Made by a program: the position numbers and the translations under genes | DNA from: Gracilinema caldarium DSM 7334 | Lineage (GTDB): Bacteria > Spirochaetota > Spirochaetia > Treponematales > Breznakiellaceae | Direction of reading: 5' to 3' | DNA length: 64,000 nucleotides | Assembly (NCBI RefSeq): GCF_000219725.1 | Contig: NC_015732.1 | Coordinates: 2,046,001 to 2,110,000 of the forward strand | Part shown: piece by piece, positions 6,703 through 57,060 of the stretch | Numbering within the stretch: the first letter of the stretch is position 1 | Layout: every line of letters begins with the position of its first letter | Notes under the pieces: generated by a model | What the model was told of the DNA's origin: nothing | The model's input: the letters and a program-made list of their open reading frames with translations, nothing else | The model's database searches: none

Positions 6703-6732
6703 ATTATACAAATAGGGTGTATAAACGGACAA
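6703..6732 (-). promoter_or_regulatory. Predicted sigma70 promoter of gltBD
   Basis: On the minus strand, TTGTCC (6727-6732) and TATAAT (6703-6708) are separated by 18 bp. The start would fall near 6697, giving a leader of roughly 87 nt. The -35 box touches the T-run of the hairpin at 6739-6771. Confidence 0.6.
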
Positions 6733-6812
6733 AAAAAACGCCGTTACCGTAAGGAGGAACCGGTAACGGCGCAACGTAAAAACTTTTGATGCCCTGCATA
6801 TGAACCTACGTC
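6731..6812 (-). ncRNA. Candidate ~82-nt small RNA or attenuated gltB leader
   Basis: A minus-strand promoter at 6819-6848 predicts a start near 6812. An intrinsic terminator follows: a perfect 11-bp stem (6739-6749 with 6761-6771) and then eight consecutive U residues. No minus-strand gene lies upstream for this terminator to serve, and gltB has its own promoter downstream. The 11-nt loop reads GTTCCTCCTTA on the RNA strand, complementary to Shine-Dalgarno sequences including that of gltB. Two readings are possible: a free small RNA, or a premature terminator in a longer gltB leader. A 31-codon open frame from an ATG near 6801 could be a leader peptide, but it is not enriched in Glu or Gln. 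Confidence 0.45.
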
Positions 6813-6818
6813 TACTAT

Positions 6819-6848
6819 AGTATACAACAAAATAGTACTAGAATTCAA
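6819..6848 (-). promoter_or_regulatory. Predicted promoter of the small-RNA candidate
   Basis: On the minus strand, TTGAAT (6843-6848) and TATACT (6819-6824) are separated by 18 bp. It is back to back with the plus-strand promoter at 6862-6890 and fires toward the terminator hairpin at 6739-6771. Confidence 0.5.
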
Positions 6849-15546: not shown

Positions 15547-15579
15547 ACAGGGTCCTTATTCCTCCGGGACCCTGTTTTT
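15547..15579 (+). terminator. Intrinsic terminator of the mgl operon
   Basis: Nine-bp arms ACAGGGTCC (15547-15555) and GGACCCTGT (15567-15575), followed by a T-run. It lies 14 bp after the mglC stop. Confidence 0.85.
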
Positions 15580-54145: not shown

Positions 54146-55627
54146 ATGGATAAGTCCAGTGTTATTTTCGGCAATCCTATAGCGCCAGGGATTGTCCAAA
54201 AGGCAGAACGGCAGAAAACTGCCTACATCAAAAAATTCGGAGATGATACCCAAAAGGAATTTCGTTTAGTATCCCGGAAGGTTGACAGTCTTGAGCCTAT
54301 GGGAATTGAGCAATTGATGGTTCAGGATACCAGTATTACTGTAGAGGGAGACTGGAAACAAAGCAACCTTGCTTCAGATCCGAATGCCCTTGTGGTAGGA
54401 AATATCCGGATGGGTTTTGGACATTACCGAATTTCTATTGCAATTGCCAGTGCTGCTCGAGCCCTAGGTAAAAATCCATACTGGTTCGACCTGCATTCTT
54501 TTAAGGATACTACCGGAGGAAAAATTATTGCCCATCTCAATAGTCTCTACTCCCTGGGATCCCGCTTATCACAGAAATATGCACTTTTTAACAGCCTATA
54601 TTGGGAGCCTCTAAATTCAGAGGGTTTCAGGAAGCTGAGTTACAATGCGGCGGATCAAAAAATAACTGAGCTTATGGCTACTCCCTGCAAACTGCTTCCA
54701 AAACAGGTTCCTTATGTAGCAACCCATGTATGGCCCGCCCAGGCAGCGATACACAGCGGTATGGAACGGGTCGTCAACGTTATCCCCGATAACTGGCCTA
54801 TGGCTTTACACCTCTCCGAAGGAGCAATCCATTGCGTACAATCTCCCTCCGCCTGGTTTGGCTACAAAATGTTACGGGGTATGGCTGGTAAAAACATACC
54901 TCGCTTTATGGATCCTGGAAGCCTTGTCTACACTGGTCATTACATTGACCATGAGCTGGTTGCCAATCTAGAACAGGATACAGCGGAACGCTTAAAACGT
55001 CTGGCAACCTTACAGCCCCTACGGATACTCCTCTCTGTCGGCGGTGCAGGGGCACAGCGGGAACTCTATGCCAGGCTCATCCGGGCACTTCTTCCTCTCG
55101 AAAAGCGTGGTAAGGTTGCCATACTCATTAATGTGGGGGACCATCAATCGGTTTTGAGTGGTCTTCTTTCTGACATTCCCGAACTCCAAGCAGCCACGAA
55201 ATACATCAACCATTGGAGCGATACCCGGACCTTCGCAAAACAAGCCCTGCAGAATTCGATTTCGGGCATCCATCTTTTTATGCATTCCGACATTTTCCAG
55301 GCTGTTTACACCACGAACATCCTCATGCGCGCCAGTGACCTCCTCGTGACTAAGCCAAGTGAATTAGCCTTCTATCCAGTACCGAAACTACTGGTCCGAC
55401 GGGTTGGAGGACATGAAGCATGGGGCGCAATTCGGTCAGCTGAATTGGGTGACGGCACCTTTGAATGTAGTGATCCCAGAGAGGCGGAGATCATGCTCAA
55501 ATTTCTAGTCGAAGACTACGAGGGGTTACATTTGATGAATTCCTGCATCCTATCCGCCAATAAAACGGGACTCTATTCGGGAGCCTACCGGGCAGTTGAA
55601 TTAGCAGGGCAAGGAGGAACAAAATGA
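54146..55627 (+). CDS. GT-B-like glycosyltransferase-related protein, function unknown
   Basis: I do not recognise the family with certainty. The 493-residue protein has a segment NIRMGFGHYRISIAIASAARA near residue 93 resembling the G-x-GH-x3-A start of MGDG synthase/MurG-type GT-B glycosyltransferases, and a second half beginning LRILLSVGGAGAQRELYARL that looks like the nucleotide-sugar half of such folds; LLVTKPSELAFY near residue 420 recalls the E/P-rich sugar-nucleotide motif. No signal peptide or membrane segment. The ATG at 54146 is preceded by AGGAG at the right distance; a longer frame from 53999 would cover the operator. It is the first gene of a TetR-controlled operon with a sugar symporter. 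Confidence 0.6.
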   Translation: MDKSSVIFGNPIAPGIVQKAERQKTAYIKKFGDDTQKEFRLVSRKVDSLEPMGIEQLMVQDTSITVEGDWKQSNLASDPNALVVGNIRMGFGHYRISIAIASAARALGKNPYWFDLHSFKDTTGGKIIAHLNSLYSLGSRLSQKYALFNSLYWEPLNSEGFRKLSYNAADQKITELMATPCKLLPKQVPYVATHVWPAQAAIHSGMERVVNVIPDNWPMALHLSEGAIHCVQSPSAWFGYKMLRGMAGKNIPRFMDPGSLVYTGHYIDHELVANLEQDTAERLKRLATLQPLRILLSVGGAGAQRELYARLIRALLPLEKRGKVAILINVGDHQSVLSGLLSDIPELQAATKYINHWSDTRTFAKQALQNSISGIHLFMHSDIFQAVYTTNILMRASDLLVTKPSELAFYPVPKLLVRRVGGHEAWGAIRSAELGDGTFECSDPREAEIMLKFLVEDYEGLHLMNSCILSANKTGLYSGAYRAVELAGQGGTK

Positions 55628-57060
55628 GTAACAGAACTAGTACTGCACAGGTTCACACCGTGGAGTCACTCCCCTTCGGGAAAAAAATCGTCTATGCATT
55701 AGGCCAGCTTGGATGGTCATTAGCAAGCTATGGGGCGGCTAATTTTTTAAATTACTTTTATTTGCCACCTCAGGAAGGTGGAACAGCCCTGTTTCCCAAA
55801 ATGATTCATCAAGGTTATGTTGTAGGATTTCTTACCGTCATTGGGCTTATTCTCGCCTTTGGCCGTATATGGGATGCTATAACCGACCCCCTTATCGCCG
55901 TGTTTTCCGATAAGAACAAATCGAACATCGGCCGCCGACGCTTTTTTATGGCTGTTTCGGTTTTGCCCTTTGCGCTTTTTTCAATTTTGGTCTTTGTGGC
56001 ACCCTTCGGTACTGGGACTCAGGCTAACATTACAGCTAATGGCATCTGGTTGTTTGTTACGGTCACGCTTTTCTATTTCTTTATGACCATGTATGTAACT
56101 CCCTTCTTCGCCTGGATGAGTGAACTGGGTCATAACAGTAATGAACGGCTAGAACTTTCTACGATGATTTCTATTACCTGGGCATTGGGTGCCATGATTG
56201 GGGCCCAGGCTCCCGCACTGCAAGGTATGTTACAAGCCCAGGGGATGTCGCCGCTCCAGGCTTTTCAGACTGCCCAAGGAGTGTTCGCTCTGGTTTCTTT
56301 TATATTGATGATCCTACCTATCATCATTATTGATGAAAATCGCTATACCGAATCGGTGCCCTGCGATGACGGCTTCTTTACTTCCATTGGGAATGTTATT
56401 AAGGATCGGAATTTTTTTCGCTTTACCCTTTCGGACTTTGCCTATTGGATCAGCCTGTATTTTATCAACAATGGACTCATGTATTATATAACCGTCCTCC
56501 TTGGACTTCCCAAAGAAGCTTACTCAAGTCTCTTTCTAATCATGTTTTTCATCAGTTTTGCTTTCTATATCCCTGTTAACTTTATTGCAAGAATTGTAGG
56601 ACGTAAACGACTTCTCATGATTGCCTTTGGACTTTTTGGTCTGCTCTTTATCTTCTGTGCCCTCTTTGGGTATCTGCCCGTACCACCAATGATTCAGGCT
56701 CTTATTGCAGCCCTCATAGCCGCCATACCACTTGCTATTTTTGGGATTCTACCAAACGCTATGATTTCTGATATGGCAGAAGCCTATGCAATAGAGACGG
56801 GAATGTATAAAGCGGGAGTGTTCTTTGGCTTCAGAACCTTTATGTCAAAAATGGGTCAATCTATTGGTGCAGCATTACTGCCATCTATTGTTAAAATTGG
56901 GGCTGATTATTTAGGATCAGACGAAGTAGTAGGTGTAACTGGAGTACGGCTTACAACCATCTTTGCCCTTGCATTCTGCGTCATCGGTTTTATATTGCTC
57001 TTACTTTACAATGAAAAACAAGTGCAAGAAACTTTGGCAAAGCATTCACAAAGTAAGTAA
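55624..57060 (+). CDS. GPH-family sugar:cation symporter
   Basis: This is an inner-membrane carrier of the glycoside-pentoside-hexuronide:cation symporter family, 478 residues, about 12 membrane segments. Typical sequence: FGKKIVYALGQLGWSLASYG at the N-terminus, GRIWDAITDPLIAVFSDK and SNIGRRRFF after the second helix, and ISDMAEAYAIETGMYKAGVF in the last third. It overlaps the preceding GT-B-like gene by ATGA, so the two products should act together, for example taking up a glycoside that the other protein modifies. The substrate is not evident. Confidence 0.9.
   Translation: MSNRTSTAQVHTVESLPFGKKIVYALGQLGWSLASYGAANFLNYFYLPPQEGGTALFPKMIHQGYVVGFLTVIGLILAFGRIWDAITDPLIAVFSDKNKSNIGRRRFFMAVSVLPFALFSILVFVAPFGTGTQANITANGIWLFVTVTLFYFFMTMYVTPFFAWMSELGHNSNERLELSTMISITWALGAMIGAQAPALQGMLQAQGMSPLQAFQTAQGVFALVSFILMILPIIIIDENRYTESVPCDDGFFTSIGNVIKDRNFFRFTLSDFAYWISLYFINNGLMYYITVLLGLPKEAYSSLFLIMFFISFAFYIPVNFIARIVGRKRLLMIAFGLFGLLFIFCALFGYLPVPPMIQALIAALIAAIPLAIFGILPNAMISDMAEAYAIETGMYKAGVFFGFRTFMSKMGQSIGAALLPSIVKIGADYLGSDEVVGVTGVRLTTIFALAFCVIGFILLLLYNEKQVQETLAKHSQSK

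Follow-up and report, generated by a model that had tools for sequence, protein, structure and literature searches.

A candidate small RNA with an anti-Shine-Dalgarno loop in Gracilinema caldarium, member of a conserved and apparently undescribed RNA family of Treponema-like spirochaetes

LhrC-type small RNAs (sRNAs) of Listeria occur in several copies and have C-rich loops, and MicA, RybB and VrrA, the sRNAs of the sigmaE response, use different seeds and depend for the most part on Hfq. In enterobacteria and Vibrio, these last sRNAs are presented as the repressing arm of sigmaE, an ECF response, in two reports (PMC1804206, PMC2628432). The RoxS/RsaE, FsrA and CsfG RNAs of the Firmicutes are short sRNAs, several per genome, whose C-rich regions pair with mRNAs, and those of RoxS pair with Shine-Dalgarno sequences, according to PMC8216469. 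The atoC RNA (RF01733) is listed for delta-Proteobacteria in PMC2864571. As for spirochaetes, a 2022 review counts Treponema pallidum among the bacteria with few annotated sRNAs, its sRNAs being unexamined (PMC9029176).

The candidate sRNA gene considered here lies on the minus strand, at 6848-6731, of a stretch of 64,000 nucleotides from G. caldarium DSM 7334 (the window). Together with its relatives, it resembles the C-rich sRNAs of Firmicutes in being, as judged by sequence only, a free-standing short gene with its own promoter and terminator, and in having a conserved unpaired C-rich anti-Shine-Dalgarno segment; it differs from them in the ECF-type promoter of most members and in the hosts, which are spirochaetes. 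The RoxS/RsaE, FsrA and CsfG families proper gave no Rfam match, insofar as the library includes their models, and no Rfam family reached its gathering threshold in the window or in seven relatives. Taken as a whole, the family shares with the sigmaE sRNAs an ECF-type promoter common to the sRNAs and the sigma gene, but it departs from them in that the anti-Shine-Dalgarno loop sits in the terminator, that the window copy is without the ECF promoter, and that Hfq (PF17209) was matched in none of eight genomes, with 5 of 14 controls positive and a very divergent Hfq being able to escape. The likeness to LhrC-type sRNAs consists of several copies with C-rich loops; phylum and promoter differ, and homology was compared through Rfam alone. 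The Rfam family with the lowest E-value at the window locus is atoC RNA, at 24.9 bits against a gathering threshold of 50, and it too has a CCCUCCU loop in its terminal hairpin, followed by U, within 93 positions. Identity with atoC was nevertheless rejected: over 198 genomes of the phylum, RF01733 gave seven chance-like matches, none of them above the cut-off and, by eye, none with a CCUCC-loop terminator. Full-text searches within one literature collection returned no description of this RNA family, nor is there one in the parts consulted of PMC7160235 and PMC8525777. We regard the family as new, though of a kind already known.

A sequence-only reading of the window had proposed a promoter on the minus strand and, about 82 nt from the start, a strong terminator ending in eight U, and both are present. 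The promoter, read directly at 6848-6819, consists of the -35 hexamer TTGAAT (6848-6843), identical in G003, another genome of the genus, and TTGAAA by eye in G017, a genome of another genus, and of the -10 hexamer TATACT (6824-6819), placed after an 18-nt spacer and found as TATATT in G003 and as TATACT in G017. Counting from the -10 hexamer, the RNA is predicted to start near 6813 and to span about 82-83 nt (6813-6731). Its 5' part (6812-6774) is predicted to form a hairpin, GACGUAGG...UUUUUACGUU, in the fold and in the consensus fold of three sequences. The intrinsic terminator hairpin that follows (6772-6738, 11-12 pairs by folding) has its arms at 6772-6761 and 6749-6738 and is completed by a run of eight T at 6738-6731, both read directly from the letters. 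Its loop, GUUCCUCCUUA / GTTCCTCCTTA (6760-6750), is the anti-Shine-Dalgarno segment and presumed seed; with the closing C it reads CUCCUUAC, which is complementary to GTAAGGAG upstream of gltB (6623-6616). Folding of 6815-6732 gave -28.5 kcal/mol (z -3.57), which 1 of 200 shuffles equalled. The first terminator scan missed this hairpin because its loop limit was 8; in a scan without loop limit, it is one of three strong terminators in the 64 kb. Directly upstream of the sRNA, no minus-strand ORF of at least 100 aa was found, in agreement with the earlier claim that no gene there needs the terminator, and all that this strand holds there is antisense to an operon of the plus strand encoding a sugar-binding protein, a histidine kinase, an AraC-type response regulator and two more binding proteins. 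Elsewhere in the window, at 15547-15575 on the plus strand, a second CCTCC-loop terminator (loop TATTCCTCC) follows a sugar ABC-transporter operon; it is without an ECF-type promoter and is possibly a 3'-UTR-derived RNA.

The promoter hexamers themselves are at chance level (10 promoter-like sites in 3 kb, against 7.4 +/- 2.8 in shuffles), and it is conservation that lifts the locus above chance. When a 301-nt query was compared with 39 genomes, four matched, counting the window itself and one 49-nt match (L004), a terminator-like stretch without CCTCC that was dropped as a relative. Between the window genome (G000) and G003, identity is 100% in the -35 hexamer, 78% in the spacer, 97% in the 5' part of the RNA and 100% in the terminator; outside the RNA it is 60% upstream, 39% in the gap between the RNA and the gltB promoter and 81% at the start of gltB. 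The peak of identity thus falls exactly on promoter and RNA, with 97-100% in the RNA against 39-60% in the flanks. The G017 copy agrees with that of the window in 93% of the terminator, 100% of the -10 hexamer, 69% of the 5' part and 44% of the spacer. Of the three further genomes in the genus, two (G001 and G002) gave no window-type copy with the hairpin model R2.

A near-exact hairpin pattern matched in 19 of 195 genomes, where, outside the three loci of the window clade, L025, which coincides with L041, was the sole family hairpin with its terminator; since this pattern was too poor, covariance models were needed. R1, built from the window, G003 and G017 sequences, scores the window RNA at 112.6 bits (1.0e-26), a value high by construction, and matches in 114 of the 195 genomes of the family Breznakiellaceae at E<=1. 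The best 30 R1 loci share this anatomy and differ in the letters of the stem. R2, the covariance model of the hairpin, matches in 118 of the 195 at E<=0.05, with about 10 expected by chance, and in 163 of 291 genomes of the order Treponematales. Applied to 296 genomes sampled from the phylum, it matched in 22 at E<=0.001: four belong to the family, 12 to another family within the order, and six, with weak matches (E 1e-4 to 6e-4), lie outside the order. From the better matches, 124 loci were chosen (30 + 14 + 80, from 109 genomes), to which the family contributed 100 and the remaining families of the order 24. Among these 24, no fewer than four (L157, L158, L168, L173) are doubtful and stayed in the promoter counts; two of the 124 loci gave no hairpin.

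In 25 aligned hairpins, 6 of 11 stem pairs show compensatory changes and 97.8% of cells are paired, against 24-62% in slid controls, and the loop is kept while the stem letters change, TCCTCCT being invariant in 25 of 25 rows (alignment A4). CCTCC or CTCCT lies within the loop or at its margin in 119 of the 122 hairpins from the 124 loci, although loop conservation and pairing were partly selected for by models that derive from CCTCC-loop sequences. Several relatives (L072, L094, L044 and L159, for example) carry a second CCUCC in the unpaired 5' part, which the window copy lacks, having the predicted 5' hairpin instead. Clustering of the 228 nearest genomic neighbours gave 137 groups with at most 12 members, and several contexts recur. 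L101 and L108, which lie 5 kb apart in one genome (G346:C1:3277674 and 3272424) and strongly resemble each other, represent a recent duplication, with TGTAAC in only one of them. Two sister RNAs accompany the window copy in its own genome. One, from C1:202611 onward on the plus strand, has TGTAAC...GTT and the loop TTTCCTCCTCC and is common to G002, G003 and G017. The other, at C1:1910259-1910328 on the minus strand, is 96% identical to an RNA of G003 and also occurs in G001 and G017; it carries TTCCTCCTTTC before the hairpin and, by eye, a TGTTACC...GTT promoter. The proposal of a trans-acting sRNA with a C-rich loop, one half of the sequence-only reading, is well supported by the separate promoter and terminator, the covarying stem, the near-invariant loop, the many genomic contexts of the relatives and the sister copies, and its suggested check of stem and loop conservation came out in its favour. 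These features argue that the RNA belongs to a conserved, apparently undescribed family in Treponema-like spirochaetes.

Most family members share a second feature, upstream of the RNA. TGTAAC occurs 30-115 nt before the hairpin in 88 of the 124 loci (78 of 100 from the family, 10 of 24 from the other families of the order), against 43 of 3642 windows of 85 nt from the same loci (1.2%), and GTT follows it at a spacing of 16-18 in 85 of these 88, exactly 17 in 71, with a background of 4.5%. Among terminator-like hairpins in all DNA examined, TGTWAC is found upstream of 71 of 95 CCTCC-loop terminators and of 6 of 83 others. A strict promoter pattern with GTTNTATTAG was too narrow (two of six genomes) and was abandoned. 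TGTAAC-N17-GTT resembles ECF promoters. Among 20 sigma genes, small ones chosen from eight genomes with orthology judged by eye, the motif stands right at the start of a look-alike ECF sigma gene in seven of seven genomes, against one of the 13 remaining genes (Fisher p 1e-4). The member of this ECF set in the window genome, L208 (G000:C1:732119-732322, minus strand), has Pfam sigma regions 2 and 4 and its own TGTAAC-N17-GTT, and the gene after it carries zf-HC2 (5.8e-7), a domain typical of anti-sigma factors, which would make its bearer an anti-sigma-like partner. TGTAAC-N17-GTT is therefore probably the promoter through which one ECF sigma factor regulates its own gene, and its presence before both this gene and the sRNAs would place the sRNAs in the regulon of that factor. 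The L208 regulon in Treponematales looks definable from sequence. In the window copy, the sigma-70-type TTGAAT-18-TATACT takes the place of the ECF motif, which is found in none of the three members of its clade (window, G003, G017), so that ECF control cannot be claimed for the window RNA itself. The ECF-type motif is present in all eight of the remaining gltB-linked copies, which suggests that the promoter was switched to the sigma-70 type in the window clade.

It could be argued that TGTAAC-N17-GTT is the operator of a dimeric transcription factor, which would put the sRNAs in another regulon, and some copies, reading TGTAAC-N17-GTTACA, are indeed palindromes. This is rather unlikely, given that the right half is mostly reduced to GTT, that the distance between motif and RNA suits a promoter and that the motif recurs before one and the same ECF sigma gene. 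Far less probable is the view that the window hairpin is no regulator and only serves as a strong terminator for some other transcript, with a CCTCC loop that is incidental and a promoter that is spurious. The chance level of the promoter hexamers and the other CCTCC-loop terminator of the window speak in its favour, but the 5' part and the promoter show the same degree of conservation as the hairpin, the relatives carry a bipartite promoter with defined spacing at a fixed distance range, the loop is constant while stem letters vary, and upstream there is no minus-strand gene to be terminated.

The remaining alternatives concern gltB (6610-1937, minus strand), which encodes the large subunit of glutamate synthase (Pfam GATase_2, Glu_syn_central, Glu_synthase, GXGXG) and is a neighbour, not part of the sRNA. 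It lies downstream on the same strand, within a reach of about 1.5 kb, in 11 of the 124 loci, and this neighbourhood, kept in 11 genomes of several genera, is by its distribution an old one. The other half of the sequence-only reading saw in the hairpin a conditional terminator in a long gltB leader, the regulated step being readthrough from the upstream promoter into gltB. The order promoter, terminator, gene fits such an attenuator, yet downstream of the terminator gltB has a conserved promoter to itself, TTGCAT-17-TATAAC at 6670-6642 (minus strand), recurring as TTGCATAAA...GTATAA before gltB in other genera and lying between RNA and gltB in most of the 11 linked loci; in one of them (L098, genome G009), the RNA and gltB are split by roughly 650 inserted nt that contain other reading frames, and the promoter stays with gltB. 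Furthermore, 113 of the 124 loci have no gltB within reach, the stretch from the T-run to the gltB promoter is the least conserved, and an unsystematic look revealed no alternative antiterminator. With a promoter of its own before gltB and adjacency in so few loci, a gltB-leader terminator is not supported and seems very improbable; the separateness of that promoter and the other recurring contexts indicate that the sRNA is a separate gene. Over the gltB -35 hexamer, an inverted repeat, GTTTATGCA-N7-TGCATAAAC (6685-6661, minus strand; not part of the sRNA), with its core kept in G003 and G017, is likely an operator for gltB control. Nitrogen control in trans, with the neighbouring gltB mRNA as the main target of the sRNA, would agree with the old linkage and with the 8-nt complement to the gltB ribosome-binding site in the window. 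The complement shrinks, however, to 6 nt in G003 and 7 nt in G017, the generic AAGGAG, with the loop unchanged, and gltB-specific targeting was discarded on account of these changed sites. When the loop was matched against the window genes, a check also suggested earlier, matches of at least 6 nt preceded 19 of 50 crude gene calls (shuffled loops: mean 3.7, maximum 15), and the longest, 10 nt, falls on the ribosome-binding site AAGGAGGAAC of an MFS sugar transporter gene (55624-57060, plus strand). The claimed complementarity to Shine-Dalgarno sites, that of gltB included, therefore stands, the special pairing with gltB does not, and the loop matches many genes; gltB as main target is accordingly distinctly unlikely.

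The explanation that we consider probable is that of a free-standing sRNA gene of a Treponematales family whose products would block Shine-Dalgarno sites in trans independently of Hfq, with most of the family forming one arm of an ECF stress response. The sequence itself displays architecture, conservation, covariation and promoter association; transcription, ECF control, pairing and targets we infer. The window locus would be transcribed into an sRNA of about 83 nt, with start, length and termination as predicted, and its terminator loop would present the anti-Shine-Dalgarno letters of the ribosome, CCUCCUU. This loop would pair, without Hfq, with the Shine-Dalgarno regions of mRNAs, in many relatives also through the second CCUCC of the unstructured 5' part, and such pairing would block the start of translation. 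Most members would be transcribed from TGTAAC-N17-GTT, which would make the family largely the noncoding arm of an ECF stress response, and the window copy would have retained the RNA under a sigma-70-type promoter. It is conceivable, although we hold this only tentatively and with some doubt, that the order possesses as a whole an Hfq-independent ECF arm of one to three short RNAs per genome, each bearing the anti-Shine-Dalgarno sequence once or twice, which would broadly damp translation start under stress, presumably of the envelope, as decoys of the 16S tail and not through a few seed targets, one Gracilinema copy having been recruited to sigma-70 control.

If the proposed explanation is true, a conserved RNA family and a named candidate sigma factor would together define a testable regulon in spirochaetes without recognisable Hfq. 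The logic of a stress sigma factor with repressing sRNAs would then be joined to a C-rich anti-Shine-Dalgarno seed that is not of the enterobacterial type. The sRNA family also gives markers for the annotation of many spirochaete genomes.
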